Source of the DNA: an uncultured Algimonas sp.
Lineage (GTDB): Bacteria > Pseudomonadota > Alphaproteobacteria > Caulobacterales > Maricaulaceae
Direction of reading: 5' to 3'
NCBI GenBank assembly: GCA_937923575.1
Contig: CALDUL010000031.1
Location: 1-35,060 of the forward strand
Length of the DNA stretch: 35,060 nt
Made by a program: the position numbers and the translations under genes. The notes under the pieces are model-generated. The model was not told the DNA's origin. It worked only from the letters and a program-made list of their open reading frames with translations, and searched no databases. This document shows, piece by piece, positions 7,532 to 25,593 of this stretch. Numbering within the stretch: position 1 is the first letter of the stretch; every line of letters starts with the position of its first letter.

Positions 7532-8554
7532 GTGCTCCGCGCTCTCGCATATGCCGCGACCTTCGCTCTCCTGGCGAGCTGTTCAGATGCGCAGGACGAT
7601 ACCTTGCGCCTCGTCGGCTCCTCTACCGTATTCCCCTTTGCGGCGCGTACGGCAGAGCGCCATAGCGAGCTCACGGACGTGCGGATCGTGGTCGAGCAGA
7701 CCGGCTCCGGCGGCGGGCACAAGCTGCTCTGCGCTGGACCGGCCACGACATTTGGTGGACCCGACGCGACGACCAGTTCGCGGCGGCAGGACGCGGTCGA
7801 AGCCCAAGCCTGCCGCGACAACGGCCTCGGCGAGGTCCTGGAGCTAGAACTGGGTTATGACGGCATTGTGCTCGCGCATGCGCGCGAGGGGCAGAGCGGC
7901 GCGGCGATGACGGCGCTGACCCGGACGCAGATCTACCGCGCACTGGCGGCGGAGTTGCCCGACGCGCAGTGCCGTTACAGACGCAACCCCCACCGGCTCT
8001 GGTCCGATGTGGATGCCGCGCTGCCCGCGCGCCCCATCGTCGTGCACGGCCCGCCGCCGACATCCGGCACGCGCGATGCCTTCGTGCGATTGGTCATGGA
8101 CGTGGGCGCGCGCGCACAACCCTGCGGAGAAGAACTGGCCGCTGCTGATCCCGAAGCGTTCATGACCCGCGCCCGCACTGTGCGCGAGGACGGTGCCTGG
8201 GTCGATGCGGGTGAGAATGACAACACGCTGGTCAGGACGCTGCTGGGCGCGCCGGACAGTCTCGGCGTGATCGGATTTTCCACGGTCGAGCGAAACCGCG
8301 CGCAGCTGATGGGCCTGCGTATCGACGGGATTTCGCCCGACCGCGCCGCGATCCTGGCGGGCGACTATCCCGTCACGCGCACGCTCTATGGCTATTTCCG
8401 CGAAGACCGCCTGCGCGCACGCCCGGCGCTGGCGGGACTTGCGCGGGAAATGGTGTCGGACAGACCGAGCGAGGACTTGATCTCCCTGCCCGCTGAGCGA
8501 CGTCGCGAGATGCGCGCACGGCTGGAGCAAGCGGTCGGCGAGGGCGCGCCGTGA
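7532..8554 (+). CDS. pstS: PstS-like phosphate-binding lipoprotein
   Basis: The substrate-binding protein of the high-affinity phosphate ABC transporter, 340 residues. A lipoprotein signal ends in LLASC with Cys17 as the lipid-attached residue. Phosphate-binding motifs are visible: LVGSSTVFPFA near the N-terminus, EQTGSGGG, and TSGTRDAFVRLV in the second lobe. The start is a GTG, with no ATG giving a comparable signal peptide. It is the first gene of a pstSCAB operon and overlaps pstC by four bases (GTGA). The lipobox suggests membrane anchoring instead of a free periplasmic form. The 87 bases between this gene and the divergent MATE gene contain no recognisable Pho box on either strand. Confidence 0.88.
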   Translation: MLRALAYAATFALLASCSDAQDDTLRLVGSSTVFPFAARTAERHSELTDVRIVVEQTGSGGGHKLLCAGPATTFGGPDATTSSRRQDAVEAQACRDNGLGEVLELELGYDGIVLAHAREGQSGAAMTALTRTQIYRALAAELPDAQCRYRRNPHRLWSDVDAALPARPIVVHGPPPTSGTRDAFVRLVMDVGARAQPCGEELAAADPEAFMTRARTVREDGAWVDAGENDNTLVRTLLGAPDSLGVIGFSTVERNRAQLMGLRIDGISPDRAAILAGDYPVTRTLYGYFREDRLRARPALAGLAREMVSDRPSEDLISLPAERRREMRARLEQAVGEGAP

Positions 8555-9777
8555 CCGATCCGACGCCGCTCTACATGCTCGTGCTCTCAGCGTTGCTCTG
8601 CGCGGCAGTGTTCTACCATGTGCGCGACGGTGCGCGCAGACGGGTTTTTCTTGCCGGGCAACGCCCGCACTCGCGGTCCCGCTATCACGGCGCATTGGCC
8701 GCCTGCGCGGCGGCGGCGGCCTGCTCGGTCGTCTACGGCGTAGGTCTCGCGCTCCGGCCTGCCGGAGATGTCCTGTTCGACGCAGGCTGGATGGCGGCGA
8801 CGGGGCTGCTCGGCTGGCTCGCCGGATGGATGGTCAGCCGCCGCAGCACGATGGCCTTCCGCGCCCGCCCGCATGTGGAGCGCATTGTGCGTATCGCGCT
8901 GGCCGCGCTCTCGACCCTGGCCGTGCTGGTCACTCTGGGCATCGTCGCGTCGCTTTTGTTCGAGGCACTATTGTTCTTCGGCGATGTGTCGATTGTGGAG
9001 TTCATCTTCGGCACGCAATGGTCGCCCCAGACCGCGATCCGCGAAGGCCAGGCCGGACAGTCGGGCGCGTTCGGGGCTGTGCCGGTTATGGCGGGCACGC
9101 TGCTGATCACCGCGATTGCGCTGCTGGTGGCTGTCCCGACCGGGCTGATGATCGCGATCTACCTCTCGGAATATGCGAGCCGCAGAACGCGTGCGCTGGT
9201 CAAGCCGATGACCGAAATTCTCGCCGGCATTCCGCCCGTCGTCTACGGTTTCTTCGCCCTGCTCAGTGTCGGCCCGGCGGTGCGCAGCCTGGCGGGCGCG
9301 CTCGGTGCCAATGTCCCGACACAGTCCGCACTGGCGGCGGGACTCGTCATGGGCATCATGATTATTCCACTGATCAGCTCATTGTCAGATGACGTCATCA
9401 ATGCCGTGCCGCAGAGCCTTCGTGACGGGTCATATGCGCTGGGTGCGACGCGTTCGGAAACCGTGCGCCGTGCCGTGCTGCCGTCCGCCCTGCCGGGCAT
9501 CGTCTCCGCAGTGCTGCTGGCCGTCAGCCGCGCCATTGGCGAGACCATGATCGTCGTCATGGCCGCTGGACGCGGGGCGACGCTCTCCGCCAACCCGCTG
9601 GATAGCGTAACAACGGTGACGGTGCAGATCGTCGCGCTGCTCACGGGCGATCAGGTGTTTGATAGTTCCAAGACCCGCGCCGCCTTCGCCCTCGGCCTGA
9701 TGCTGTTCGCGCTGACGCTGATCCTCAACGTCGTCGCGCTGATCGTCGTGCGCCGTTATAAGGAGCGCTACGCATGA
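8551..9777 (+). CDS. pstC: Phosphate ABC transporter permease PstC
   Basis: An inner-membrane permease subunit of 408 residues, about 90 longer than E. coli PstC. The extra N-terminal part holds additional hydrophobic segments (residues 5-22, 45-65 and 72-90), as is common in alphaproteobacterial PstC. The core has the PstC-like FIFGTQWSP segment, the substrate-path region 'AGIPPVVYGFFALL', and the cytoplasmic EAA-type coupling loop YALGATRSETVRRAVLP around residues 293-310, followed by 'SRAIGETMIVVMAAG'. It starts with GTG inside the pstS stop and overlaps pstA by ATGA, so translation is probably coupled along the operon. Confidence 0.94.
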   Translation: MTDPTPLYMLVLSALLCAAVFYHVRDGARRRVFLAGQRPHSRSRYHGALAACAAAAACSVVYGVGLALRPAGDVLFDAGWMAATGLLGWLAGWMVSRRSTMAFRARPHVERIVRIALAALSTLAVLVTLGIVASLLFEALLFFGDVSIVEFIFGTQWSPQTAIREGQAGQSGAFGAVPVMAGTLLITAIALLVAVPTGLMIAIYLSEYASRRTRALVKPMTEILAGIPPVVYGFFALLSVGPAVRSLAGALGANVPTQSALAAGLVMGIMIIPLISSLSDDVINAVPQSLRDGSYALGATRSETVRRAVLPSALPGIVSAVLLAVSRAIGETMIVVMAAGRGATLSANPLDSVTTVTVQIVALLTGDQVFDSSKTRAAFALGLMLFALTLILNVVALIVVRRYKERYA

Positions 9778-10874
9778 GCCGCGCGCTCGCCCGCCGCAAA
9801 CGCGCGGAAGCGCGCTTCCGCCTCATGGGCCGGGCCGCAATCGCCTTTGCGCTGCTGGCGCTGGTCTGGGTAATCGGCTCGGTGCTGGTCATGGGCGCAG
9901 GCGCGCTGACCCATCACCGCGTCGAGGTGAGCGCGATGGAGCTGGTCGATCCCGCATTGGTGTCCGCAAGCGATCTTGGCGCGCAACAGCGGCGCAGCGA
10001 TTTTCAAGACGGCACTCAAAGCGTGCTCGCCACGGCGCGGCTAGATCAATATCTGAAGGGCCGCGATGTTGTGCTCAGCGCGGAACAGGTGGCGACGGTC
10101 GAGCGCTGGCGCGAGCAGGGCCGCATCTCGCGCGGGTTCAACACCACGCTTTTCACCCGACCGGACTCGCGCGATGCGGAACGCGCAGGGCTGAAGACTG
10201 CTCTGTTCGGCTCCCTAATCATGCTCGCGCTCGCCGCCGCTCTGGCGCTGCCGCTCGGCATAGCAACGGCCGTCTATCTCGACAGCTTTGCACCGCGCCG
10301 CGGCTGGGGCGGGCGGCTGACGCGGGCGCTGGAAGTGAACATCAACAATCTCGCCGCCGTGCCCTCTATCGTCTTCGGTCTGCTGGGACTGGCCGTCTTC
10401 ATCAATCTCGTGGGGCTAGCGCGGTCGATCGCCTTGGTCGGCGGGCTGGTGCTGGCGCTTCGCATGTTCCCGACGATCGTCATCGCCAGCCGCGCTGCGC
10501 TGGAATCAGTCCCGCCGCGCATCACCGACGGTGCGCTCTGCCTGGGGGCTTCGCCGGTGCAGGTCGTCTTCGGGACCAAGCTGCCCATGGCCGGACCGGG
10601 CATTCTCACCGGCTCGATCTTGGGCCTTGCCCAGGCGCTGGGGGAAACCGCGCCGCTGCTGCTGATCGGCATGATCGCCTTCATGACCGAAGCGCCGGCG
10701 GGGCTCACTGATCCCGCCACCTCCCTGCCGGTGCAGGTCTTCCTCTGGTCGGACGGGGCGGAGACAGCCTGGTCGGAGCGCACGGCGGCTGCGATCCTCG
10801 TGCTGCTCGGACTACTTCTCCTCATCAACGGCGCGGCGACAGCCTTGCGCGCCAGACTGGACCACCGCCGATGA
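9774..10874 (+). CDS. pstA: Phosphate ABC transporter permease PstA
   Basis: The second permease subunit, 366 residues. The N-terminal 130 residues contain one membrane helix and a soluble stretch ([20 protein letters not shown]), matching the DUF3333-type extension found in alphaproteobacterial PstA. The transporter core follows from about residue 140, with '[21 protein letters not shown]' and the coupling loop [17 protein letters not shown] near residues 255-271, then '[14 protein letters not shown]', which is diagnostic of PstA. It overlaps pstC and pstB by four bases on each side. It works with PstC as the channel, energised by PstB. Confidence 0.94.
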
Positions 10875-11650
10875 CAAATCATTCCCTCGAGCGTGAGCCG
10901 AAGTTTCGCTGCCGTTCGGTGTCTGTGCATTACGGCAGCTTTCAAGCGCTGCACGATGTCGACATCGATATCATGGATCGGGGCGTGACGGCGCTGATCG
11001 GGCCGAGCGGCTGCGGAAAGTCGACCCTGCTGCGGGTGTTCAACCGCATGAACGACACCATCGCCAATGCGCGCGTCACGGGCTCGGTCACCATGGACGG
11101 GCAGGATATTCTCGGCGGCGATATCGATCCCGTCAGCTTGCGCGCGCGCGTCGGCATGGTCTTCCAGACGCCCGTGCCCTTTCCGAAGAGCATCTATGAC
11201 AATGTCGCCTATGGTCCGCGCCTGCATGGCCTTGCGCGCACACGGGCGGAGCTCGACGCCGTGGTGGAAAACAGTCTGCGCCGCGCGGGACTGTGGGACG
11301 AGGTCAGTGACCGCCTGTCCATGCCCGGCACGGGTCTGTCGGGCGGTCAGCAGCAGCGCCTCGTGCTCGCTCGCGCAATCGCCGTCGATCCCGAAGTCAT
11401 CCTGATGGACGAACCCGCCAGCTCGCTCGACCCCATCGCCACGGCGCGGCTGGAAGCGCTCATCGAAGCGCTGAAGGCGCGCTACTGCATCATCATCGTG
11501 ACCCACAGCATGGCGCAGGCTGCCCGGATTTCCGACCGCACGGCGTTCCTGCATCAGGGCCGGTTGATCGAATATGATGCAACGGAACGACTGTTCACGA
11601 ACCCGGGGGATGTACGCACGCAGGACTACATCACAGGGCGATTTGGCTGA
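10871..11650 (+). CDS. pstB: Phosphate ABC transporter ATPase PstB
   Basis: A 259-residue ATPase of the normal PstB length. It has Walker [10 protein letters not shown] (44-52), the PstB-specific [19 protein letters not shown] segment around the Q loop (98-115), ABC signature LSGGQ (156-160), Walker B VILMDEP (176-182), and the switch histidine in VTHSM. It hydrolyses ATP to drive phosphate import through PstC/PstA. It is the last gene of the operon: no phoU or phoB follows, and the next gene is convergent. In many relatives phoU and phoB follow pstB, so their absence here means the signalling part is encoded elsewhere. Confidence 0.96.
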
Positions 11651-13175: not shown

Positions 13176-14150
13176 CTACGCCGCCGCGTCCGCCCCGTAG
13201 GTCAGCTGCAGGAAGACGTCTTCGAGGTCCGGCTGGTCGGTGCGGAGATCGGCGATAGAGAGCCCGGCCTCTTTCACGCGGCCGAGCAGGCCCGTGACCG
13301 AGTCGACGCCTTTTTGGTAGGTAATGATGAGATTGCCGTCCTCCACCTTGGCGTCGAGACCCGACAGTTCGGCTGGCACGACGGTAATATCGGTGGTCGG
13401 CGTGATGACCAGCATGCGGCGGTCCATGCGAGAGAGCAGTGAGCTCTTGGACTCATTCGCCACGATACGCCCCTGGTGAATGATCGCAATCTGGTCGCAG
13501 AGCGCTTCGGCTTCTTCGAGATAATGCGTGGTCAGGATCACGGTCGTGCCGCGCGCATGCAGCACTTGCACATAGTCCCAGAGCTGGCGACGCAGCTCGA
13601 TGTCGACGCCGGCGGTTGGCTCGTCGAGGATCAGCACGGGCGGATTATGCACCAAGGCCTTGGCGATCAACAGGCGGCGCTTCATCCCGCCGGAGAGCTG
13701 CCGCACATAGGCGTCGCGCTTGTCCATCAGGCCGAGAGCTTCGAGGATTTCCTCCGATCGTCGCTCAGACTTCGGCACGCCGTAATAGCCGGCTTGCAGC
13801 TCCAGCGCTTGCATCGGCGTGAAGAAGACATCCATCGCGATTTCCTGCGGCACGATGCCGATGGAACTGCGCGCGGCGCGGGTCTGCGTCGTGATGTCGT
13901 GGCCGCAGATGCGCGCCACGCCCGACGTCTTGTTCACCAGGCCAGCCAGAATATTGATCATGGACGATTTGCCCGCACCATTGGGGCCGAGCAGGCCGAA
14001 GATGGAGCCGCGGGGAATGACGAGATCGACAGCGTGCAGCGCTGTCTTGGCGGGGGCCTTCTTGGTCGCGGCATAGGTCTTGGTCAAACCGATCAACTCA
14101 ACCGCAGGCGCGAGTTGTTGAGGCTGGTCTGTCATTGCGCTTGTCTCCAT
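13176..14150 (-). CDS. ABC transporter ATP-binding protein (DrrA/NodI/CcmA type)
   Basis: A 324-residue ATPase with Walker A GPNGAGKSS (55-63), Q loop in IVPQE, signature LSGGM (152-156), Walker B plus D loop VLILDEPTAGVD (172-183), and the switch histidine in TTHYLEEAEALCD. The C-terminal 80 residues carry the regulatory extension typical of drug/polysaccharide exporter ATPases of the ABC-2 class, ending 'DQPDLEDVFLQLT'. These ATPases need a separate ABC-2 permease, and none is encoded in the operon or in the window. Two starts are possible, 14150 and 14135; both have GGAG upstream. First gene of the operon. Confidence 0.9.
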   Translation of the reverse strand: METSAMTDQPQQLAPAVELIGLTKTYAATKKAPAKTALHAVDLVIPRGSIFGLLGPNGAGKSSMINILAGLVNKTSGVARICGHDITTQTRAARSSIGIVPQEIAMDVFFTPMQALELQAGYYGVPKSERRSEEILEALGLMDKRDAYVRQLSGGMKRRLLIAKALVHNPPVLILDEPTAGVDIELRRQLWDYVQVLHARGTTVILTTHYLEEAEALCDQIAIIHQGRIVANESKSSLLSRMDRRMLVITPTTDITVVPAELSGLDAKVEDGNLIITYQKGVDSVTGLLGRVKEAGLSIADLRTDQPDLEDVFLQLTYGADAAA

Positions 14151-14201
14151 ATCGCGCTCCGCTTAGACCGCCCACCTGAGCTTCACAACGGATTGAACGA
14201 C

Positions 14202-14402
14202 ATGGCCGACAAGTCTCTCCCCGCCACCGCAGACCCCTCCCAAGACGGAGACGAGCGCGTCGTGGTCGCGACGAAATACGTCAAATGCGACGGCGGCGGC
14301 GGCGCGCTGGGCCATCCCGTCTCCTGGATGGATATGGGTGAGGAGGACCACGTCGTCTGCAAATATTGCGACCGCGAGTTTGTGCTGGCCGCAAGCGCAT
14401 GA
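14202..14402 (+). CDS. zf-CHCC zinc-finger protein
   Basis: A 66-residue protein. The C-terminal half carries the zf-CHCC pattern: VKCDGGGGALGHP (Cys and His) followed after a short loop by VVCKYCDREFVL (two Cys). This domain is shared with the mitochondrial complex I subunit NDUFS6 and is common as a short stand-alone protein in alphaproteobacteria. It probably binds one zinc ion. Its exact role in bacteria is not clear. The stop overlaps the mtnP start by ATGA, so the two are translated together. The upstream neighbour on the other strand is the ABC ATPase. Confidence 0.9.
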   Translation: MADKSLPATADPSQDGDERVVVATKYVKCDGGGGALGHPVSWMDMGEEDHVVCKYCDREFVLAASA

Positions 14403-15292
14403 GCTGGACCCTAGGCATCCTCGGCGGCTCCGGCCTCTATGACATCGACGGGCTGGAAAAGCGTGAGTGGGTGCGCATCGACACGCCGTGGGGCGAGACG
14501 AGTGATGAGATCCTGTTCGCCGAACTGAACGGTGTGCGCCTGCGCTTTCTTCCGCGTCACGGGCGCGGTCACGCGCTGTCGCCAAGCTCGGTCAATTACC
14601 GCGCCAATATTGACGCGCTGAAGCGAGCGGGTTGCACGGATGTGCTGTCGATCAGCGCCGTGGGCAGCCTGCAGGAGGCCTTTGCCCCCGGCGACTTCGT
14701 GGCGGTCAATCAGTTCATCGACCGGACGCATGAGCGCGAGAGCAGTTTCTTCGGTCCCGGCTGCGTCGCCCATGTCAGCGTGGCGGACCCGGTCTGCGCG
14801 CGGCTGTCGGGACTGGCGGCCGACGCGGCGCAAAGCGCGGGCGCGCATGTGCACCGCCCGAAGGACGGCGAGCATCTGACCTATCTCGCCATAGAGGGCC
14901 CGCAGTTCTCGACGAAAGCGGAGAGCGCAATCTATCGCAGCTGGGGCGCGGACGTCATCGGCATGACCAACATGCCCGAAGCCAAGCTCGCTCGCGAAGC
15001 GGAGCTGCCTTACGCCACCCTCGCCATGGTGACGGATTACGACTGCTGGCACCCCGACCACGCCAGCGTCGACGTGGCCAGCGTGATCGCCGTGCTGCAG
15101 GAGAATGCGGCCAAGGCGGCAGGCGCGGTGAGGGCGCTGTGCGAAACGCTTGGCGGAACAACCCGCACGCCGTGCCCCAGCGGGATCGAGACTGTGCTGG
15201 ACGTCGCGATGATCACTGCGCCGGACGCGCGCGACGCCGCCGTGATGCGCAAGCTGGATGCGGTCGCCGGGCGGGTATTGAGCGACGAATAG
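14399..15292 (+). CDS. mtnP: S-methyl-5'-thioadenosine phosphorylase
   Basis: A 297-residue enzyme that splits methylthioadenosine with phosphate into adenine and methylthioribose-1-phosphate, in the methionine/polyamine salvage route. The phosphate-binding GGSGLYDIDGL is at the N-terminus. It is followed by LPRHGRGHALSPSSVNYRAN, 'AVGSLQEAFAPGDFVAVNQFIDRT', 'GPQFSTKAES' and the purine-site segment 'GMTNMPEAKLAREAELPYA' with 'TDYDCWH'. The MTAP-type 'SPSSVNYRAN' and 'PQFSTKAE' distinguish it from purine nucleoside phosphorylase, although the two are close relatives. The start chosen is the ATG overlapping the zf-CHCC stop. The rest of the methionine salvage pathway is not nearby. Confidence 0.93.
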   Translation: MSWTLGILGGSGLYDIDGLEKREWVRIDTPWGETSDEILFAELNGVRLRFLPRHGRGHALSPSSVNYRANIDALKRAGCTDVLSISAVGSLQEAFAPGDFVAVNQFIDRTHERESSFFGPGCVAHVSVADPVCARLSGLAADAAQSAGAHVHRPKDGEHLTYLAIEGPQFSTKAESAIYRSWGADVIGMTNMPEAKLAREAELPYATLAMVTDYDCWHPDHASVDVASVIAVLQENAAKAAGAVRALCETLGGTTRTPCPSGIETVLDVAMITAPDARDAAVMRKLDAVAGRVLSDE

Positions 15293-15315
15293 CGCTCCAC
15301 CTCCTGCCCGGTGCT

Positions 15316-16368
15316 TCAACCCACCCGGTTCACATGCCCCATCTTCCGGCCTGGACGTATGTCCGCCTTGCCGTAGAGATGCAGATGCGTGTTCGGCCCG
15401 CGGGCCAGTGTGTCCCAGTCGTCCACATCATCGCCGATCAGGTTGGTCATGACGACGGCCCGCTTCGGCGCGGCCGATCCCAGCGGCCACCCCGCAACGG
15501 CGCGGATGTGCTGTTCGAACTGATCGGTGCAGCCCGCGTCCTGTGTCCAGTGGCCGCTATTGTGCACCCGCGGCGCGATTTCGTTGACCAGCAGGCCGTC
15601 CGGCGTGTCGAAAAACTCCACACCCATCACGCCAACATAGTCGAGCGCGTCCAATATGGTCCGCGCCGCCTCGCCCGCGCTGCCGTCGTCACCGGATGCG
15701 GGGGCATGGCTGCTGTGCAAGATGTGGTGGCGGTGTTCATTCTCGGTCAGCGGATAGGCCGCGACTTGGCCGTCTGCGCCGCGCGCGGCCACGACCGAGA
15801 CTTCGCGCGAAAATTCGATGAGTGATTCCAGGATCAGCGGCACGCCGCCGAGGCGTTCCCACGCCGCCGTCAGATCGTCGTCTGACCGGATCATCGCCTG
15901 GCCCTTGCCGTCATAGCCGCCGCGGCGTGTCTTCAACACGCCGCGTCCGCCCATGGACTGCAGCGCGTCGCGCAAGCCCTGCTCGCTATCGACAGCGGCG
16001 AAATCGGCCGTTCGTAGTCCTGTGTCTCGCAGGAAGGTCTTCTCGATCAATCGGTCCTGTGCGGTCTGCAGCGCGCGAATATTCGGCGCGACCGTGCGGC
16101 CCTTGGCGGCGGCTTCAACAGCAGCGACGGGGATCGACTCCCACTCATAGGTGATGACGTCGCATTCGCTCCCGAAACGCGCCAGCGCGCGCAGGTCAGA
16201 CCAGTCGCTGATCGTGTGGGCATGGGCGACCTGCATGGCCGGATCGTCGATATCGGTGCCGTAGATATGGGTGCGCAGGCCGAGCCGTGCGGCGGCAAGG
16301 GCGAGCATTCGGCCGAGCTGGCCGGAGCCGAGAATGCCGATGGTGGAGCCGGGCGGCAGGGCGGTCAT
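15316..16368 (-). CDS. purK: N5-carboxyaminoimidazole ribonucleotide synthase
   Basis: A 350-residue ATP-grasp enzyme that uses ATP and bicarbonate to convert AIR to N5-CAIR in purine synthesis. GILGSGQLGRM (11-21) is the PurK N-terminal signature. The ATP-grasp core includes 'GRGVLKTRRGGYDGKGQ', 'LILESLIEFSREVSVVAARG', 'VGVMGVEFF' and 'VNEIAPRVHNSGHWTQDAG', the last being the Mg/ATP site. It lies one base downstream of purE, the usual purEK arrangement, so its product is passed to PurE. The frame is open to 16422, but the ATG at 16368 gives the normal start. Confidence 0.96.
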   Translation of the reverse strand: MTALPPGSTIGILGSGQLGRMLALAAARLGLRTHIYGTDIDDPAMQVAHAHTISDWSDLRALARFGSECDVITYEWESIPVAAVEAAAKGRTVAPNIRALQTAQDRLIEKTFLRDTGLRTADFAAVDSEQGLRDALQSMGGRGVLKTRRGGYDGKGQAMIRSDDDLTAAWERLGGVPLILESLIEFSREVSVVAARGADGQVAAYPLTENEHRHHILHSSHAPASGDDGSAGEAARTILDALDYVGVMGVEFFDTPDGLLVNEIAPRVHNSGHWTQDAGCTDQFEQHIRAVAGWPLGSAAPKRAVVMTNLIGDDVDDWDTLARGPNTHLHLYGKADIRPGRKMGHVNRVG

Positions 16369-16369
16369 G

Positions 16370-16858
16370 CTAGCCTCGCGGATCGGTGCCGATGGCCGCC
16401 GTCTGCGCCGCGCGCCAATCATCGAGGCGCTTTGCGAGGTCAGTGTCGGTGAGAGCCAATATGCTCGCCGCCATCAGCCCGGCATTTTTCGCGCCCGACT
16501 TGCCAATGGCCAGCGTGCCCACGGGAATGCCGCCGGGCATCTGCGCGATCGACAGCAGGCTATCCATGCCGGACAGGGCGGCGGATTGCACCGGCACGCC
16601 GAGCACGGGCAGGCGGGTCATGGACGCGCACATGCCGGGCAGGTGGGCCGCGCCGCCCGCGCCCGCGATGATGACGTGATAGCCCGCCTCAACCGCGCCT
16701 TCGGAGAAATCCACCAGGCGCTTTGGCGTGCGGTGGGCCGAGATCACGGTGGCGTCGTAGTCCACCCCCAGCGCGTCGAGCACATCGGCCGCATGTTCCA
16801 TGGTCGGCCAATCGCTGGTCGAGCCCATGATGATGGCGACTTTTGTGGGTTCGGACAT
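16370..16858 (-). CDS. purE: N5-carboxyaminoimidazole ribonucleotide mutase
   Basis: A 162-residue class I PurE, which rearranges N5-CAIR to CAIR right after PurK. Key motifs are [10 protein letters not shown] (11-20), SAHRTPKR (40-47) with the active-site histidine at 42, and '[12 protein letters not shown]', all part of the CAIR site. [19 protein letters not shown] follows. First gene of purEK. The open frame runs upstream to 16975, but that extension has no protein-like character and crosses a 13-base tandem repeat; the ATG at 16858 fits the family. Confidence 0.96.
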
Positions 16859-16875
16859 GGTGCGTTCCAACCGAG

Positions 16876-16901
16876 CGGTAAGGGCAGGCGGTAAGGGCAG
16901 G
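16876..16901. repeat. Perfect tandem repeat, 2 x 13 bp, in the purE leader
   Basis: The unit CGGTAAGGGCAGG occurs twice head to tail (16876-16888 and 16889-16901), 18 bases upstream of the purE start. It may be a simple slippage duplication or part of a promoter/leader element. Confidence 0.85.
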
Positions 16902-17018
16902 CGTCTAGCGAGCGAGGCGCGGGATTGCAAATGCGACCGCGACGTCGCCCCGATGTTCCTTCGCGTGCCTCGCACCCGCGTTAGCCCGGTCTTAACGGCC
17001 TGCCGTCAGAGGGTGTCC

Positions 17019-17672
17019 ATGCGGTCTGACGCTCCATATTCCTCTCGGCTGTCGACCGTGTTGCAGACGGCCTCCGTGCCGCTGGCCCAACAGCTCGGCG
17101 TGACGGACGAAAAGCTCCTGTCCGACAATGAGGAGAAGGCCGCGGAGATTACCCGTCTGCGCCTGCGCGTGCTGGAATTGGAACGGGCCGTGGATATGGA
17201 CCCGCTGCTCGATCTCTATAATCGCCGCGCCTTCCTGCGCGAAATACGGCGCGCCCAGACGGTGATGGAACGCTACGACATGCTGTCGTCGATCATCTTC
17301 TTCGATCTGGACGGGTTCAAGCGGGTCAATGACCTCTATGGACACGGTGTCGGCGATGCGCTGCTGGCACAGGTCGCACGCGTACTCAGCGACGGCGTGC
17401 GCGATTGCGACATGGTCGCCAGGCTGGGCGGCGATGAGTTCGGCGTGCTGCTCTTCCGCTCCGATCCCGATGTCGCGCGCGCCAAGGCCAATGCGCTGGC
17501 CTGCAAGATTTCAGCCGCTGGGCTGGACCATCCCGACGGGGCGATCCGTGCGATGGCCAGCTGGGGTGTGGCCCCGTGCGAGCCGGGCGACACGGTAGAG
17601 GCCGTGCTCGATCGCGCGGACCGCGCCATGTATCTGGACAAGAAAAAACCCGAAGGGTTCCTGCGCGCCTGA
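17019..17672 (+). CDS. Cytoplasmic GGDEF diguanylate cyclase with I-site
   Basis: A 217-residue protein that should make cyclic di-GMP from two GTP. A coiled-coil-like helix covers about residues 25-60 (NEEKAAEITRLRLRVLELERAV). The GGDEF domain follows, starting DPLLDLYNRRAF. It has the metal/GTP site IIFFDLDGFKRVND and the intact active loop RLGGDEFGVLL (GGDEF at 137-141). The product-inhibition I-site RDCD (128-131) sits exactly five residues before GGDEF, as in PleD. There is no transmembrane segment or receiver domain. The ATG at 17019 has AGAGGG five bases upstream. The layout of a coiled coil plus one GGDEF resembles Caulobacter DgcB, but orthology is not shown. It may tie to the envelope/BcsB-like gene only speculatively. 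Confidence 0.92.
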   Translation: MRSDAPYSSRLSTVLQTASVPLAQQLGVTDEKLLSDNEEKAAEITRLRLRVLELERAVDMDPLLDLYNRRAFLREIRRAQTVMERYDMLSSIIFFDLDGFKRVNDLYGHGVGDALLAQVARVLSDGVRDCDMVARLGGDEFGVLLFRSDPDVARAKANALACKISAAGLDHPDGAIRAMASWGVAPCEPGDTVEAVLDRADRAMYLDKKKPEGFLRA

Positions 17673-18887: not shown

Positions 18888-18905
18888 GTGTCACAGTGCT
18901 GTCAC
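18888..18905 (+). promoter_or_regulatory. Pho-box-like direct repeat (distal)
   Basis: GTGTCAC-AGTG-CTGTCAC: two 7-base units on an 11-base period, matching 13 of 18 positions of the E. coli PhoB consensus CTGTCATAWAWCTGTCAY. It lies between the divergent unknown gene (18275-18847) and the TPR gene, and the orientation points to the TPR gene. Confidence 0.5.
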
Positions 18906-18975
18906 GCAATCACGACCGTTCGGATCACGAAAATACAAGGGTTTAGCGCTCTGATTGTCGGCTATGTGACGGCGA

Positions 18976-18993
18976 ATGTCATAGAACTGTCTT
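18976..18993 (+). promoter_or_regulatory. Pho-box-like direct repeat (middle)
   Basis: ATGTCAT-AGAA-CTGTCTT: two 7-base units with a 4-base A-rich spacer, matching 15 of 18 consensus positions. It begins 42 bases, about four helical turns, upstream of the next box, so both could sit on one face of the helix. Confidence 0.65.
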
Positions 18994-19017
18994 TTTTCTT
19001 GACCGCGTTCGCAGTGT

Positions 19018-19035
19018 CTGTCATTTAACTGTCAC
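19018..19035 (+). promoter_or_regulatory. Pho box, near-perfect match
   Basis: CTGTCAT-TTAA-CTGTCAC matches 17 of 18 positions of the PhoB consensus CTGTCATAWAWCTGTCAY; the only mismatch is the first spacer base. It ends 94 bases before the TPR gene ATG. A weak -35-like TTGACC lies at 18999-19004, and I see no clear -10, which is normal for an activator-dependent promoter. Confidence 0.82.
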
Positions 19036-19129
19036 ACACTGATGACTCCGACCCGCAGCCGGCGTGGATCGGAGCCGAAACAAAATGCCGGTGCCAGACA
19101 CTTCGGGTCTGTAACTGAAAGTCTTCGCC

Positions 19130-19687
19130 ATGAACTTTGCCACAAAACTCACCGCTTCTCTTGCTGTCATCGCTTTGTCCGCCGCGCCCGCTCTTGCGGG
19201 TGACCGCGCATCCGACATGCGCACGACCGCTCTGTCCGGCCAATCCTCCGCGCTGATTGCGGATTGTACCTCTGAAACCGCGTCATCTCGCGCCGTTCGC
19301 GCCTGCACCAAGGCCGCGCGTCTCGCCAATACTCCCGACGTTCGTGGCGAGCTGATCGCGCGCCGGGGCCTGCACCGCCTGGCGCTCGGCCAGTTCGACA
19401 AGGCAGGCACGGACTTCGAGCGCGCCGGATCGCTGACGGGCGACACCAGCCTTGCCTCGCTCGGCACGGGTTTTGCGGCGATGATGGAAAAAGACCTGCC
19501 GCGCGCACGCTCAGCCTTTGATGATTGCAGCAATTTCGGCCCGCTGGCCCCGCTCGCGCAATATGGTCTTGGTCTGTCCTACCAGATGAGCGGCGACACC
19601 GGCATGGCGCGCGAGGCCTATGCGGCCGCACTGGAAATGCGTCCCGGTTGGGCCGTGGCGACCGAACAGCTGGCCAGCCTCGGCTAA
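19130..19687 (+). CDS. Exported small TPR-repeat protein
   Basis: A 185-residue protein with a Sec signal peptide (hydrophobic LTASLAVIALSAAPALA, cleavage after ALA near residue 23), so it is periplasmic. The mature part has a Cys46/Cys59 pair that could form a disulfide ('ALIADCTSE...RAVRACTKAARL'). Two or three TPR-like helical hairpins follow: about residues 73-103 (ELIARRGLHRLALGQFDKAGTDFERA), 107-135, and 141-173 (PLAQYGLGLSYQMSGDTGMAREAYAAALEMRPGW). TPR proteins of this size usually act as protein-protein adaptors. The upstream region holds two or three Pho-box-like repeats and the gene ends in its own terminator, so it is a separate unit, probably induced by phosphate starvation. No specific partner is known. 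Confidence 0.85.
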   Translation: MNFATKLTASLAVIALSAAPALAGDRASDMRTTALSGQSSALIADCTSETASSRAVRACTKAARLANTPDVRGELIARRGLHRLALGQFDKAGTDFERAGSLTGDTSLASLGTGFAAMMEKDLPRARSAFDDCSNFGPLAPLAQYGLGLSYQMSGDTGMAREAYAAALEMRPGWAVATEQLASLG

Positions 19688-19710
19688 CGCCAATGCGCTC
19701 GAGCTTGGAA

Positions 19711-19745
19711 AAGCCGTCGCCCCAGGGGAGGGGCGACGGCTTTTT
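19711..19745 (+). terminator. Rho-independent terminator after the TPR gene
   Basis: An 11-bp perfect stem (GCCGTCGCCCC / GGGGCGACGGC) with a 6-base loop is followed by five T. It separates the TPR gene from the beta-helix/TonB operon. Confidence 0.93.
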
Positions 19746-19797
19746 CATGCGCGCTTGGCAACCATGGTTCCGCGCGTTTTACAATCTCGTGACACCG

Positions 19798-19837
19798 CTG
19801 TCGCGCAACTGTCGCTGGGCTTTCACAAGTCCGACAC
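19798..19837 (+). promoter_or_regulatory. Pho-box-like array, up to four 11-base-phased units
   Basis: Units CTGTCGC (19798), CTGTCGC (19809), CTTTCAC (19820) and CCGACAC (19831) follow each other with an exact 11-base period, the spacing of PhoB tandem sites. The first two form an 18-base box with 13 of 18 consensus positions. The array lies 127 bases before the beta-helix lipoprotein ATG, right after the previous terminator. Individual units are weaker than the box at 19018-19035. Confidence 0.6.
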
Positions 19838-19964
19838 GCATCGGTGACGCGTGTGTCACACAGCTCTGGCTTGAGGCCCTCGCAATAGCGAGATCCATCG
19901 ACCCGATTCTCTCGCTTAAATATCCACGCGCGGACCGCCCGCGCCGTGCTTCGCGAGATAGTCT

Positions 19965-22778
19965 ATGTTCGATACGTTCAAAACTCTTCTGCTTGCTTCC
20001 TCTGCTGCTCTGGTTCTGACAGCCTGCGGCTCGTCCGAGAGCGCAGCCCCCGGCAACCCGACACCCATCGTCATCGCCCCAACAGGCGGCGGCAACACGC
20101 CTCCGCCCGCCGACAATTTTGTCGATCTGGTGCCTGGCGGTTCCTGCCCGACGGGTACCGTGCTGGAAGACAATGATCTGTCGGACGGCAATGGCGGCTC
20201 GCTCGGCACGGTTCGCGCCTGCACCATCACGGGCACGATCTCGTCCAATCTCACCCTCCCATCCGGCATCGGTATTGCGCTCGAAGGCGCGGTCTTTGTC
20301 GGCGACGACGGCGCGAATGATGCGGTTTTGACCATTCCCGCGGGCACGACCGTATTTGGCAAGTCGGGTCAGGATTACCTCGTTGTGTCGCGCGGCTCGC
20401 AGCTGAACGTCCGGGGCTCCGCTACCAACCCTGTCATCATGACGTCGATCGAAGACGTGCTCGGCACGGTCGACCCGGTCAACGACCGTGGCCTGTGGGG
20501 CGGCGTGGTCATCAATGGCGCGGCGCCGCTGAACCGCTGCATCGACGCGACAGCCACACCCGGCACGGACGCCTGCCAACGCTCGGGCGAAGGCTCGTCC
20601 GGTCTCTATGGCGGCGGCAATACGGCCGATAACTCCGGCTCGCTGGAATATCTTCAGGTCAGATATGCCGGCAATCTCATCAACGACCAGGACGAGCTGA
20701 ACGGTATCGCCTTCCAGGGCGTCGGTTCCGGCACGACCTGCAACCACATCCAGGTCCACAACAACGCCGATGACGGCGTGGAGTTCTTCGGCGGCAATGT
20801 CGTCTGCTCCGAGCTGGTCCTCACCGGCAATGGCGACGACAGCCTCGACTGGACCGACGGCTGGCAGGGCGGCGCGCAGCGCGTCGTGATCAGCCACACG
20901 CCCGGCGCGGGCGACAACGGCATCGAGGCCGATAACCGCTCCGGCAATAATGACGTCACCCCCGTCTCTGACCCCACCATCTCGCAATTCACCTTTGTCG
21001 GCGCGGAAGGCGACATCGGCATTCTGGCGCGCGAAGGCACCGCAGGCCGGATCGTCAACGGCATCATCACAGACTTTCCTGATGCGGGCATCGACGTGGA
21101 CGACGGCTCGACCCTGCGCAATTTGCAGGACGGCTCGCTCTCCTTCGCATCGCTCTTCCTCGACAATCCGACCAATGTGCTCTCGGGTGACAATGGAGAG
21201 ACGGTCGCGACCGACACCATCATCCTCGGCAGCGACAATGTGGTGACGGGCAATAGCTCGCTCACCGACCGCTACTTCCCCGGCGCAAATGAGCAGGCCG
21301 TGGACAGCGACGATGTGTCGATGGTTCCGGGCTTCACATCCTATGACTACATCGGCGCATTCGCTGCGGACGAGAGCGTCGACAACAACTGGGCGCGCGG
21401 CTGGACTTTCGCGCTGTTCGAAAGCCCGACCGAATGTCCCGCCGGCACGACAGCCACCGGCACAGTGCAGGCACAGCGCCCGATCTGCGCCATCTCGGGC
21501 ACGATCGAGACCAATGTCCGGCTGAACAACAATTTCATCTACCAGCTCGAAGGCGCGGTCTTCGTGGGCCGCGATGCGGGTGCAGATCCGGCGGCTCCCG
21601 CTGCTGACGCCAACCCCGTCACCCTGACCATCGATGCAGGCACGACCGTGTTCGGCGCAACGGGCGAAGATTATATCGTCGTCTCGCGCGGCTCGCAGCT
21701 GCGTTCCAACGGAACGGCCGCTGCGCCCGTGGTTCTGACCAGCCGCGCCGATGTCTTCGGCACGGCGAACCCTGTCACGGACCGCGGCGAATGGGGCGGG
21801 CTGATCATCAATGGCCGCGCGCCGATCAACCGCTGCATCGACTCGACCGCCACGCCCGGCACGACGGGCTGCGAGCGCTCGGGCGAGGGCTCATCGGGCC
21901 TCTACGGCGGCGGCACGTCCACTGATAATTCGGGCAATCTCTTCTACACTCGCGTTCAATACGCCGGGAACCTGATCAATGACGAAGACGAGCTGAACGG
22001 CATCGCCTTCCAGGGCGTCGGCTCGGGCACGCAGGTCGATTTCGTCCAGGTCCACAACAATGTCGATGACGGCGTCGAGTTCTTCGGCGGCACGGTCAAT
22101 GCCAAGCACCTGGTGCTGACGGGTATCGGCGACGACAGCATCGACTGGACCGATGGCTGGACCGGTAATCTACAATACGCTATCGTCGATCAGGCCGACG
22201 GCATTGGCGATCAGGGCATCGAGGCGGACAACCGCAGCTCGTCCAACGACGTCACCCCGCGCTCCAACCCGACCCTGTCCAACCTGACGCTCATCGGCGG
22301 CGACGGAACGGACATTGGTGTGCTGCTGCGCGAAGGCACAGCTGGCGATCTCTACAACTCGGTCATCACCAATTTCGATCAGTCCGGCTTCGACATCGAC
22401 ACGGCGGCGTCCGCCGCACAGGCGACGACTGGTGAGATCGCGTTTAACTCGGTGCTGATCGCGGGCAATGCCTCTGATCTGCAGGTTGATGGCGACACGA
22501 CCGATGCCGCGCAACAGGCCGCACTCGACAACGGCTCCAACAACCGCGTTGGCGGCGATGTGACCGACTTCGACGCGCGTCCGATCGGCGGCGACCGCTA
22601 TGCGCCCGGCGCGGCAGAAAGCGCAGTCACAGCGACCAATGTGAATGCCGTGTCCGCCTTCTTCGACGACGTCGATTACATCGGTGCGGTCGAGAGCGAA
22701 GACGACGACTGGTACCAGGGTTGGACCCTGCTGGTCGATCAGAACACAGCAACAACGACGGCGAGCGCCGGCAACTAG
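19965..22778 (+). CDS. Large outer-membrane lipoprotein of two tandem beta-helix-like modules
   Basis: A 937-residue protein. A lipoprotein signal ends in LVLTAC with Cys21, followed by Gly-Ser, so it should be sorted to the outer membrane. After a Pro/Ser-rich linker come two homologous modules of about 430 residues, starting near Cys61 and Cys491. Each has the same order of motifs: 'LEGAVFVG', 'AGTTVFG..G.DYLVVSRGSQL', 'DRGLWGGVVINGAAPLNRCID', 'GSSGLYGGG..ADNSG', 'YAGNLIND.DELNGIAFQGVGSGT', 'DDGVEFFGG', 'DDSLDWTDGW', 'GIEADNRS..NDVTP', and a C-terminal 'YIGA..........GWT'. The repeated Gly/Asn/Asp-rich rungs look like a right-handed beta-helix, and the clustered acidic residues may bind a metal such as calcium. 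It is followed by a TonB-dependent receptor 51 bases on, with a Pho-box-like array upstream. Similar modules occur next to TonB receptors in Bacteroidota (from memory). Confidence 0.85.
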   Translation: MFDTFKTLLLASSAALVLTACGSSESAAPGNPTPIVIAPTGGGNTPPPADNFVDLVPGGSCPTGTVLEDNDLSDGNGGSLGTVRACTITGTISSNLTLPSGIGIALEGAVFVGDDGANDAVLTIPAGTTVFGKSGQDYLVVSRGSQLNVRGSATNPVIMTSIEDVLGTVDPVNDRGLWGGVVINGAAPLNRCIDATATPGTDACQRSGEGSSGLYGGGNTADNSGSLEYLQVRYAGNLINDQDELNGIAFQGVGSGTTCNHIQVHNNADDGVEFFGGNVVCSELVLTGNGDDSLDWTDGWQGGAQRVVISHTPGAGDNGIEADNRSGNNDVTPVSDPTISQFTFVGAEGDIGILAREGTAGRIVNGIITDFPDAGIDVDDGSTLRNLQDGSLSFASLFLDNPTNVLSGDNGETVATDTIILGSDNVVTGNSSLTDRYFPGANEQAVDSDDVSMVPGFTSYDYIGAFAADESVDNNWARGWTFALFESPTECPAGTTATGTVQAQRPICAISGTIETNVRLNNNFIYQLEGAVFVGRDAGADPAAPAADANPVTLTIDAGTTVFGATGEDYIVVSRGSQLRSNGTAAAPVVLTSRADVFGTANPVTDRGEWGGLIINGRAPINRCIDSTATPGTTGCERSGEGSSGLYGGGTSTDNSGNLFYTRVQYAGNLINDEDELNGIAFQGVGSGTQVDFVQVHNNVDDGVEFFGGTVNAKHLVLTGIGDDSIDWTDGWTGNLQYAIVDQADGIGDQGIEADNRSSSNDVTPRSNPTLSNLTLIGGDGTDIGVLLREGTAGDLYNSVITNFDQSGFDIDTAASAAQATTGEIAFNSVLIAGNASDLQVDGDTTDAAQQAALDNGSNNRVGGDVTDFDARPIGGDRYAPGAAESAVTATNVNAVSAFFDDVDYIGAVESEDDDWYQGWTLLVDQNTATTTASAGN

Positions 22779-22829
22779 GCCGCCTCGCATACTCCCCTTC
22801 GAACGATACTGAACGCACTGGACACGATC

Positions 22830-25463
22830 GTGACCCACTCGAATAAACTCGCTTCCCTGCTGCTGCTCGGCTCCATGCTGAGCGCCGCTCCAACCTTCGC
22901 TCAGGACACCGCTAGCTCCCCCACGGGTCCGGGCCTCGCTCAGACGCCCATCGCCGAAGACGAAGTCATCGCGATTGGCGTCTTCATCCCCAATGAGAAG
23001 CGCATTACCTCGGAAATCACTTCGGTGCTGGACGAGGAGGTCTTCGCCCAGATCGGGGCAGGGGACATTGCGTCTGCCCTGACTCGCGTCACCGGCCTGT
23101 CACTGGCGCAAGGCAAATTCGTCATCGTGCGCGGCCTGAACGAGCGCTACGCTTCCGCCACGCTGAACGGCTCGCCGCTGCCGTCGCCCGAACCGCTGCG
23201 CCGCGTCGCCCCGCTCGATCTGTTCCCGACCTCGGTGCTGTCCGACGTCGTGGTGCAGAAGACCTACAGCCCGGAATTTTCAGGCGAATTCGGCGGCGGC
23301 GCGATCAATCTGCGCACGCGCTCAGTCCCGACCGAGACGTTCTTCGAGATCGGCATTTCCGGCTCCGCCAACACCGAGACGACGCTGGAAGACGGCTTTA
23401 CCTATGAGGGTTCCGGCACGGACTGGCTCGGTTTCGATGATGGGCTGCGTGACCTGCCAGACCTCAACGAGGCGGGTCTTCCGGTCGGCAATTTTGACAC
23501 GGGCGACACGCTGGTACTGGAACGCCGCAAGAACGTTCCGTTCAATGGCGGGCTGCGCCTGTCGGGCGGAACCGTGTTCGACATGGACAACGGCTCCAGC
23601 GTCGGCGTGCTTGCCACACTCGGCTATGACAATGCGTGGGAAACGCGCGAAGGCGTCGCCAACACGACCCGCATCGGCGGTGACGGCGTGCTGGAACTGC
23701 GCGACGAGGCCGTGGAGCGCGGCACGGAAAACGCCATCTCGCTCAATGGACTGATCTCGGTCGGTTACGAGATCGACGAGAACAACACCGTGACCGCAGT
23801 CGGTTTCGGCACGCGCCAGAGCAGCGCCGAGGCCCGCTCGACCGTCGGTTTCAACGCCGATGCGTCCGAGGTGCAGCGCACGGATGTGACTGAGTGGTTC
23901 GAGCGCGAAGTCTTTCTCGGCCAGCTGCTGGGCGAGCACTTCATCCCGTCGCTCAACGACGCCGAAGTCAACTGGCGCGCCTCCTACGCCGTCGCCGGAC
24001 GCGACGCGCCCTATGAGCGCGAGATCCAATATGTCGAAAACGGCGAGGGCGGCTTCCAGGTCGATTTCGCCCGCTTCGGGCCAAGTAACCGCCTGCGCTT
24101 TTCGGAGCTGGACGACAACACGCTCGACCTCGGCCTCGATATTGCCATTCCGGTTGCCGTCGGTGACCGCGATGTGGAGCTGAAGTTCGGTGGTGCCTAT
24201 CTCGACAAATCCCGCGACAGCGAGCAGTCGACCTTCTTCTATACCGGTCTGCTGCCGAGCGAGCTACGCGACTCGCGTATCGACGTGGTGCTGTCCGACG
24301 CGGTCGTGGACGCCGGCCTTCTGCGCATCGACCGTATCAGCGGCGCGAGCGGTTTCCCGGACGCGTCGGACGCGAGCCTCGAGACTTTCGGCGCATATGC
24401 CGCGCTCGACGTGCAACTGACCGAAGCCCTGCAAGTCGCGGGCGGTCTGCGGTTCGAGGACGGCACGCAAACGACGGCCATCAGCCAGGTACTGAACCCT
24501 GATGCGCGTTTCGAATTCGACGCATTGGAAGAGAGCTATATCCTGCCGTCCATCACGGCGACCTACACATTCGGCGATTTCCAGCTGCGCGCGGCGGCGA
24601 GCAAGACGATCAACCGCCCGCAATTCCGCGAGCTGACGCCTTCGATCTTCATCAACACCGACACCAACGACCGCTTCGTCGGCAACCCCTTCCTGACCAA
24701 CTCGGAGAGCACCAACCTCGACGCGCGTCTGGAATACTACTTCGCGTCCAACCAGTTCTTCACCATTGGCGGCTTCTACAAGGACCTGACCAACCCGATC
24801 GAGGAGTTCATCTTCCAGGGCGTGGGTGAGAGCAATGCGACCTCCTTCATCAACGCCCCGTCGGCCGAGCTCTTCGGCATCGAAGCGGAGTTCGAGCGCA
24901 AGTTCGACATCCCGAGCGATATGGGTTTCGCGTCCGACCTCATCGGCGGAGAGCGTTTCGTCGTGCGGTCCAACTACACCTATGTCGACAGCTCCGTGAG
25001 CGCGGACGGCAATGTGTCGATCACGCCGCCCGTCGTCAGCCCGGACGGTTTCGAGCCGCTCGTGCTGGCCGCTGAAGGCCTCTACCGCGACGGCCGCAAG
25101 CTGCAGGGACAGAGCGATCACCTCGCCAATCTGCAGCTCGGCATCGAGGCCGATAGCGGCTGGGACGCCTTCCTGCTGCTGAACTATTCCAGCGAACGTA
25201 TCCGCGCGGTGGAGCAGGGCAATCCGGACATCAACCCGGTCTCCGCCCTGCCTGCCATCAATGAGCGCCTGCCGCTCTCGGTCGATTTCGTCACCAATAT
25301 CCCGCTGGAAATCGGCGGCGGCGACTACCAGCTTGGCCTGAAGGTCGCCAACATCCTGGGCGATAATTACGAAGCCAGCCAGGAAAACGGCGGGACGGAA
25401 ATCCTGATCGACAGCTATGATATCGGGACCACATTCTCGGCCAGCTTGAAGCGCAGCTTCTAG
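22830..25463 (+). CDS. TonB-dependent outer-membrane receptor
   Basis: An 877-residue protein with a signal peptide cleaved after TFA (residue 24). The plug domain has 'LTRVTGLSLAQGKFVIVRGLNERYASATLNGSPLP', 'PLDLFPTSVLSDVVVQKTYSPEFSGEFGGGAINLRTR', a pattern of receptors with 'RGLNERY' plugs and long extracellular loops. A 22-stranded barrel follows, with 'FGAYAALDVQLTEALQVAGGLRFED', 'FQLRAAASKTINRPQFRELTP' and a C-terminal Phe (SLKRSF) for barrel assembly. I see no N-terminal signalling domain, so it is not a FecA-type regulator. The start is GTG with a weak ribosome-binding site, 51 bases after the lipoprotein gene and with no promoter evident in between, so the two form an operon. The substrate is not readable. 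The upstream Pho-box-like array suggests phosphate or a phosphorylated compound. Confidence 0.93.
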   Translation: MTHSNKLASLLLLGSMLSAAPTFAQDTASSPTGPGLAQTPIAEDEVIAIGVFIPNEKRITSEITSVLDEEVFAQIGAGDIASALTRVTGLSLAQGKFVIVRGLNERYASATLNGSPLPSPEPLRRVAPLDLFPTSVLSDVVVQKTYSPEFSGEFGGGAINLRTRSVPTETFFEIGISGSANTETTLEDGFTYEGSGTDWLGFDDGLRDLPDLNEAGLPVGNFDTGDTLVLERRKNVPFNGGLRLSGGTVFDMDNGSSVGVLATLGYDNAWETREGVANTTRIGGDGVLELRDEAVERGTENAISLNGLISVGYEIDENNTVTAVGFGTRQSSAEARSTVGFNADASEVQRTDVTEWFEREVFLGQLLGEHFIPSLNDAEVNWRASYAVAGRDAPYEREIQYVENGEGGFQVDFARFGPSNRLRFSELDDNTLDLGLDIAIPVAVGDRDVELKFGGAYLDKSRDSEQSTFFYTGLLPSELRDSRIDVVLSDAVVDAGLLRIDRISGASGFPDASDASLETFGAYAALDVQLTEALQVAGGLRFEDGTQTTAISQVLNPDARFEFDALEESYILPSITATYTFGDFQLRAAASKTINRPQFRELTPSIFINTDTNDRFVGNPFLTNSESTNLDARLEYYFASNQFFTIGGFYKDLTNPIEEFIFQGVGESNATSFINAPSAELFGIEAEFERKFDIPSDMGFASDLIGGERFVVRSNYTYVDSSVSADGNVSITPPVVSPDGFEPLVLAAEGLYRDGRKLQGQSDHLANLQLGIEADSGWDAFLLLNYSSERIRAVEQGNPDINPVSALPAINERLPLSVDFVTNIPLEIGGGDYQLGLKVANILGDNYEASQENGGTEILIDSYDIGTTFSASLKRSF

Positions 25464-25485
25464 GCTTGGAACCAAAGCGGAAAAC

Positions 25486-25522
25486 AGGCCGTCGCTCCTC
25501 AATCGGAGCGGCGGCCTTTTTT
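25486..25522 (+). terminator. Rho-independent terminator after the TonB receptor gene
   Basis: A 13-bp stem (AGGCCGTCGCTCC / GGAGCGGCGGCCT, one G-T wobble) with a 6-base loop is followed by a T run. It closes the lipoprotein/receptor operon. Confidence 0.93.
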
Positions 25523-25593
25523 GTGCAGATCAGCGCTCACTTACAGCTTGCGCATCCGGGTCTGCGGTCGTTAAAGCGCGCCCGACCTTGAGT

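Follow-up and report, generated by a model that had tools for sequence, protein, structure and literature searches.

Homology, Pho-box-like sites and gene linkage point to an ElpS-type, phosphate-linked lipoprotein and TonB-dependent receptor system in an uncultured Algimonas

Which substance might a bacterium take up when a TonB-dependent receptor is encoded directly behind a large lipoprotein, and Pho-box-like sites precede the genes? This question is raised by three adjacent genes on contig CALDUL010000031.1 (assembly GCA_937923575.1) of an uncultured Algimonas sp., which encode a small tetratricopeptide repeat (TPR) protein, a lipoprotein and a TonB-dependent receptor (Table 1). Positions 1 to 35,060 of the forward strand were analyzed, and this whole stretch of 35,060 nucleotides is referred to as the window. 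An initial annotation had named the same three genes, and their open reading frames (ORFs), domains and positions agree with it. Its proposal that the pair captures phosphate, a phospho-ester or calcium phosphate found no direct support. We lean, with moderate confidence, toward an ElpS-type, Pho-regulated and TonB-energised system, which would hold a phosphorus-containing ligand at the cell surface and pass it to the receptor.

Both proteins of the pair resemble two proteins described from Caulobacter, ElpS (CC_0170) and CC_0171. Locus L152 of a Caulobacter-like genome encodes a 518-aa lipoprotein with LAGC at residues 17-20 and N38, followed by a receptor, gspC and gspD. ElpS likewise has LAGC at 17-20 and N38, and the published gene order is cc0170-cc0171-gspC (PMC2996285). 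Based on lipobox position, N38 and gene order, L152 was taken as the ElpS orthologue. Aligned with its lipoprotein, the two halves of the window lipoprotein showed 35% and 33% identity (E 3e-63 and 6e-54), and the receptors shared 36% identity over 874 columns (E 3e-142). Judged by these alignments, the window pair is homologous to ElpS and CC_0171, a relationship overlooked in the initial annotation.

This kind of system is already published, as ElpS and as the Flavobacterium lipoproteins FI, FII and FIII. ElpS is surface exposed and induced by phosphate starvation, and the window shares with ElpS/CC_0171 the homologous lipoprotein and receptor, their order, the lipobox and the link to phosphate starvation (PMC2996285). 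Unlike that system, the window lipoprotein has two beta-helix modules rather than one, the pair lacks type II secretion system (T2SS) genes downstream and has a Pho-boxed TPR gene upstream, and its Pho-box-like sites are stronger than that of L152. The Flavobacterium lipoproteins, encoded in PUSIII and PUSIV, are also phosphate-induced, have TonB-dependent receptors in the same clusters and share 31-36% identity at 50-54% coverage with the Caulobacter lipoprotein (PMC8115612). They belong to another phylum and are likened to the window by their published description; in L127, the sole Bacteroidota locus of our comparison, the receptor gene lies upstream of the lipoprotein gene.

The association of lipoprotein and receptor is widely conserved. 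Counting the window's own genome, 176 of the 249 genomes from the order encode a relative of the lipoprotein. Among titled genome contigs, the best 80 of 176 relatives correspond to 75 distinct loci, mostly of Alpha- and Gammaproteobacteria, with a few of Myxococcota or delta-type and one of Flavobacteriaceae. A receptor of the same type follows the lipoprotein gene within 1 kb in 61 of the 75 loci, lies directly upstream in two and is found 4.8-5.5 kb downstream on the same strand in six, one of these being a weak partial match. In L108 the receptor overlaps by ORF and thus falls outside the distance rule, and in two loci a contig end cuts off the neighboring region. No receptor was seen in the remaining three, among which the contigs of L132 and L134 stop 2-3 kb past the lipoprotein gene. 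Gene calls were a greedy choice of long ORFs, by which some genes were missed, including the lipoprotein ORF in L076, L092, L120, L121, L131, L132 and L134; alignments covered 50 of 62 listed receptor and 56 of 61 listed lipoprotein relatives.

This pairing bears on the role proposed for the lipoprotein in Caulobacter, that of a released activator of extracellular alkaline phosphatase next to which the receptor is a mere neighbor. Overexpression of elpS raised phosphatase activity in the supernatant, while ElpS itself showed none (PMC2996285), which speaks for this proposal. We nevertheless consider it quite unlikely for the window, as the receptor is retained beside the lipoprotein in alpha- and gammaproteobacterial loci as well as in a Myxococcota and a Bacteroidota locus, TonB genes join some of the clusters, and the authors of the Caulobacter study themselves interpreted co-occurrence as indicating that the two interact functionally (PMC2996285). 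In addition, no T2SS gene follows the window receptor. Neighboring proteins were scanned for 20 alpha-type loci (73 of 89 listed), for gammaproteobacterial loci (66 of 95) and for part of a third list of 44. The 73 alpha-type neighbors include 12 GspC, 12 secretins and 11 GspE; on the window contig no GspD match was found, and one was found on contig C50 of the same genome. Among single neighbors, a sulfatase-family gene lies shortly 3' of the ElpS-type pair in L098 (14920-16671), and one PhoX phosphatase occurs among the 66 gammaproteobacterial proteins.

Within the window, the lipoprotein stop codon and the receptor start are separated by 51 bp, and a terminator scan listed no plus-strand terminator between them. 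The two genes therefore probably form one operon, as initially annotated. A strong hairpin with a U-run separates the TPR gene from the lipoprotein gene and another follows the receptor gene, making two transcription units likely, one with the TPR gene and one with the lipoprotein-receptor pair. The simple terminator scan, which listed the receptor hairpin and not that of the TPR gene, carries little weight, since it returned fewer sites in the window (2) than in shuffled sequences (5.5).

Phosphate control is suggested by the sequences in front of both units. PhoB binds a box with a well-known consensus and an 11-bp period; we searched the pattern CTGTCAY-N4-CTGTCAY with up to three mismatches in the window. 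Thirteen sites were found, compared to an expectation of 6.84 (sd 2.51), a number reached in 1 of 100 shuffles, and eight of the 13 fall in 18888-19859. Tandem 7-bp repeats of 11-bp period are exact before the TPR gene and match at 12/14 before the lipoprotein gene, so that the initially annotated sites before both units were recovered by pattern search. The exact copy is the only one in the window's own assembly (2.58 Mb, rated 85% complete). The sites at 19798 and 19809 before the lipoprotein gene are individually weak. With up to two mismatches the assembly holds 48 Pho-box-like sites, and a reversed-pattern control already yields 27; weaker single sites hence prove little. The lipoprotein-gene sites are arranged in an 11-bp-period array and gain weight from sites in other genomes. 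Contig C16 of the same genome encodes PhoB (over cut-off) and PhoU, with a Pho-box-like site of two mismatches just before the phoU reading frame (C16:26333).

In the family as a whole, sense sites of at least 11/14 were counted over the 260 bp that precede each lipoprotein start, excluding loci with no called lipoprotein ORF, with less than 200 bp upstream or with identical last 200 bp. Such a site was present in 46 of 80 distinct lipoprotein upstreams and in 9 of 220 upstreams of other genes (Fisher 1.8e-23, a value that overstates the evidence, the sequences being related rather than independent; the threshold was set once the window was known). By group, sites precede 32 of 50 alphaproteobacterial, 13 of 23 gammaproteobacterial and 1 of 7 other genes, mostly between -100 and -170. 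Altered spacings of 2, 3 or 5 bp gave 9, 9 and 5 upstreams at the same threshold, compared to 46 for the real 4-bp spacing. Among the three control genes that reach at least 12/14, two encode DUF3450 proteins and adjoin the receptor gene in L116 and L118. Thus, orthologous pairs do not generally lack Pho boxes, and these sites support the initially annotated link to phosphate rather than to another nutrient.

That the pair serves another nutrient, such as iron or a sugar, with incidental Pho sites, appears very unlikely to us. It would be compatible with the best NCBIfam match of the receptor, TIGR01782, which stays below its cut-off, and with a receptor fold equally close to siderophore, haem and B12 receptors. 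The Pho-box enrichment in alpha and gamma loci argues against it. So does the behavior of relatives, which are starvation-induced in Caulobacter (PMC2996285) and in Flavobacterium, where the loci were moreover described as repressed under nitrogen and iron limitation (PMC8115612).

The lipoprotein itself is predicted to be a rod. Its AlphaFold model (mean predicted local distance difference test score, pLDDT, 89.0) shows two consecutive beta-helices, in line with fold comparison and with the beta-helix guessed at initially. The two modules of the window are 52% identical. By module profile, all 33 aligned alphaproteobacterial proteins, that of the window among them, have two modules, as do L119 and L127, and all 22 gammaproteobacterial ones have three. 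Eight proteins have one module, L128, L130, L133 and L135 (Myxococcota, delta-type or untitled) as well as L139, L143, L152 and L155, which belong to the order of the window and, in the case of L155, to its family. In a tree of 49 modules the copies group by lineage, with support of 99/99 for Hyphomonadaceae, 95/96 for Parvularculaceae and allies, 100/100 for a Halieaceae-type group and 93/82, not above the star level of the tool, for the relatives of the window. In Alteromonadaceae (L116, L118), the three copies of each species group within that species, a pattern expected from recent duplication or gene conversion. Repeated duplication or conversion that keeps the copies alike would point to selection for several equal sites.

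Such a site is suggested by seven acidic residues. D654, D701, D702, E705, D724, D727 and E753 (module 2, window numbering) are invariant in 144 of 144 modules, a set that includes close relatives, and in the model residues 701-705, 723-727 and 753 each fall on a short strand, on successive coils. We infer that these residues may form a metal-assisted binding face. Pel9A binds calcium via a set of Asp, Asp-Asp and Asp spaced like N678, D701-D702 and E705.

A beta-helix with an invariant acidic site could also be a surface enzyme, i.e., a polysaccharide lyase, hydrolase or epimerase-like protein, which cuts a phosphate-bearing polymer so that the receptor imports the fragments. We regard this as possible, if somewhat unlikely. 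Beta-helices match broadly, and NosD and phage tailspike entries tie with or exceed the enzymes in fold comparison; similarity to PL9/PL6 or GH28 enzymes exists in fold, as with many beta-helices, and not as a Pfam match. The lipoprotein gave no Pfam or NCBIfam match at E 0.01, its invariant columns contain no Lys or His (H697 varies), and a site kept in each copy fits binding as well as catalysis. With many beta-helix families tied, reading a function from the fold was rejected, and neither a SusD-like nor a phosphatase fold was among the comparison rows shown. Sequence searches against solved structures returned one chance match for the lipoprotein (phmmer, E 0.55) and none at E 0.001 for the receptor. 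A profile of 57 sequences reached E 0.006 at best against GlmU and dihydrofolate reductase, which was judged repeat similarity and not kinship.

For the TPR protein, the N-terminus is signal-like and Pfam gives a TPR_2 match (E 8.7e-11). Across the order, 88 of 249 genomes contain some TPR match at E 1e-5. In the ten best cases (E up to 1.3e-29), one of which is the window, the gene directly adjoins a lipoprotein gene; in G153, which ranks eleventh (E 1.4e-18), it is convergent and adjoins a receptor gene. A TPR gene accompanies the pair in all eight genomes of the window's genus and in 3 of 31 other genomes of the family with the lipoprotein. This linkage bears out the initial placement of the TPR gene with the pair; on genomic evidence, the TPR protein belongs to the set in the window's clade, and elsewhere the pair does without it. 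Nine of 12 distinct TPR upstreams carry a sense site of at least 11/14, and 11 of 12 carry one on either strand; the upstream of L079 has none of that strength on either strand. In L155 (4874-9540; genome G153, same family as the window), a one-module lipoprotein and a receptor are accompanied by a convergent TPR gene with a 12/14 site.

Some relatives connect such a TPR gene to the TonB machinery. Locus L128 (Myxococcales, 7794-17209) encodes on one strand a lipoprotein, DUF3450, ExbB, ExbB, ExbD, TonB, a TPR protein and the receptor, and L133 and L135 have TPR proteins at the matching place. In the Alteromonadaceae loci L116 (14854-17005) and L118 (14790-17880), DUF3450 plus ExbB or ExbD directly follow the ElpS-type pair, and their DUF3450 genes are preceded by strong Pho-box-like sites (13/14 and 12/14). 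In the TonB2 system of Vibrio vulnificus (TtpB2, TtpC2, ExbB2, ExbD2, TonB2, TtpD2), TtpB2 is a DUF3450 protein and TtpD2 contains TPR motifs, and both are called essential for iron transport in the title of the report (PMC6957404). In TonB2 systems, a TPR protein thus works together with TonB, and a whole such set joins the ElpS-type cluster in L128. TtpD2 comprises 425 aa (PMC6957404), compared to 185 aa for the window protein, whose gene stands alone with its own Pho box; unlike in TonB2 operons, no TonB gene lies beside it among the genes scanned. By this analogy, the TPR protein of the window may serve to couple the receptor to TonB. Judging from titles and abstract openings in the open-access literature, the TPR partner and its TonB2 link, the repeated modules and the frequent Pho-box-like sites before the lipoprotein genes of this family are apparently unreported.

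Taken together, the ElpS-type reading would operate as follows. At low phosphate, PhoB would bind the direct repeats that precede the two transcription units. The lipoprotein would be a lipid-anchored rod, with an invariant carboxylate-rich ladder in each of its two beta-helix modules. Located on the external side of the outer membrane, it would hold or pre-process a ligand that contains phosphorus; a polyanion or a metal-phosphate form, held via bound divalent cations, is the probable candidate. It would then present the ligand to the adjacent receptor for TonB-dependent import, with the TPR protein as a possible periplasmic accessory analogous to TtpD.

Several observations weigh against this reading. 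In Caulobacter, cc0171 was reported to be constitutive, unlike elpS, ElpS production was not suppressed when cc0171 was deleted, intracellular phosphate showed no detected change, and ElpS is also released into the medium, a poor fit to a fixed receptor partner (PMC2996285). The Caulobacter-like elpS gene of L152 has only a weak site (11/14 at -242), 34 of the 80 lipoprotein upstreams have none at 11/14, and antisense sites (17 of 80) or a 6-bp spacing (23 of 80) also reach this threshold, perhaps in part through overlapping repeats in longer arrays. No TPR match of this kind lies beside the pair in 28 of 39 genomes of the family with the lipoprotein, so that the TPR protein is not needed in general. 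Finally, the net charges of the lipoprotein (-89; family median -98) and of the receptor (-71) make binding of bare phosphate unlikely.

A more specific and tentative version, which we consider unlikely, sees ElpS-family proteins as calcium-dependent, multivalent binders at the cell surface, with phosphate-rich polyanions or calcium-phosphate as ligands. Selection would have lengthened these proteins repeatedly, and they would feed a dedicated Pho-controlled, TonB-powered receptor. One to three modules with the same invariant site would then have arisen or been kept uniform separately in several lineages, and the TonB power unit, in some lineages with a TPR adaptor, would be part of the same Pho-controlled set. 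Phosphate porins are a known route for phosphorus across the outer membrane; the system considered here, if correctly read, would be a route distinct from these and from SusCD. ElpS-like lipoproteins can be major products of phosphate starvation, one being the most abundant exoprotein (18.7%) of a phosphate-starved Flavobacterium (PMC8115612). The present comparison adds to the description of the ElpS family a defined module, an acidic signature of seven residues, a regular receptor partner and a candidate TonB accessory, along with a Pho-box link that is frequent in Alpha- and Gammaproteobacteria. With these, it becomes directly testable whether TonB-dependent receptors serve bacteria to pump in phosphorus compounds.

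Other surface lipoproteins serve TonB-dependent receptors. BtuB-BtuG and TbpA-TbpB follow the idea proposed for the window, and BtuB and TbpA are among the fold matches of the window receptor; the lipoproteins BtuG and TbpB have other folds and other ligands. In SusC/SusD pairs, PusCD included, receptor and lipoprotein are encoded together as in the window, and each family has features of its own, such as the N-terminal carboxypeptidase-like domain of SusC. In contrast to SusD, the window lipoprotein is modeled as a beta-helix, and the receptor matched only Plug and TonB-dependent barrel families in Pfam and NCBIfam, with no SusC model at E 0.01. As no SusC or SusD model was found at this threshold, membership was rejected, and the SusD/SusC-like pair of the initial annotation holds by analogy only.

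Table 1 Features of the window discussed in the text.
Feature	Position	Strand	Basis
pstSCAB (context only)	7532..11650	+	NCBIfam: PstC, PstB over cut-offs; PstS, PstA below
Pho-box-like site, 13/14	18888..18905	+	pattern search
Pho-box-like site, 12/14	18976..18993	+	pattern search
Pho box, exact pattern match, 112 bp 5' of TPR start codon	19018..19035	+	pattern search
Small TPR protein, probably periplasmic, 185 aa	19130..19687	+	ORF translation, Pfam
Terminator-like hairpin with U-run, after TPR gene	19706..19747	+	folding: -40.7 kcal/mol, z -6.8
Pho-box half-site array, 11-bp period, before lipoprotein gene; pairs 12, 12, 11 of 14	19798..19837	+	
ElpS-family lipoprotein, 937 aa, lipobox LTAC, two beta-helix modules	19965..22778	+	ORF, homology, model
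Beta-helix module 1, residues 60-483	20142..21413	+	module-profile domain
Beta-helix module 2, residues 488-924	21426..22736	+	module-profile domain
TonB-dependent receptor, 877 aa, CC_0171-like	22830..25463	+	ORF, Pfam, homology, fold
Terminator-like hairpin with U-run, after receptor gene	25486..25517, within 25478-25530	+	folding z -5.2; terminator scan

The initial annotation had further suggested PstSCAB as the downstream uptake step. The pst genes are indeed nearby; co-regulation is not borne out, as none of the 13 Pho-box-like sites of the window precedes them, and PstSCAB was for this reason rejected as part of the TPR-lipoprotein-receptor unit. The pstSCAB start lies 30 bp from a divergent MATE gene, and PhoU and PhoB are encoded on C16, a contig other than that of pstSCAB. 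The neighborhood of pst and TPR gene is also kept in genomes G108 and G168. In six other relatives, no pst set was found in the roughly 20 kb that flank the TPR gene on the corresponding side, with a single generic ABC match in G078; for G024, the stretch is too short to tell. In L109 (2342-7959), from a Robiginitomaculum metagenome-assembled genome, the ElpS-type gene has matches to pstS, pstC and pstB a few kb upstream, encoded on the opposite strand.

On the 3' side of the receptor gene follow a tRNA-Leu, an ORF with no Pfam match, one unscanned ORF and a cupin gene. At 2914-5583, the minus strand of the window encodes an 889-aa protein with a weak match to BcsB, a cellulose synthase subunit, and relatives of this protein are also found near pst in G108 and G168.

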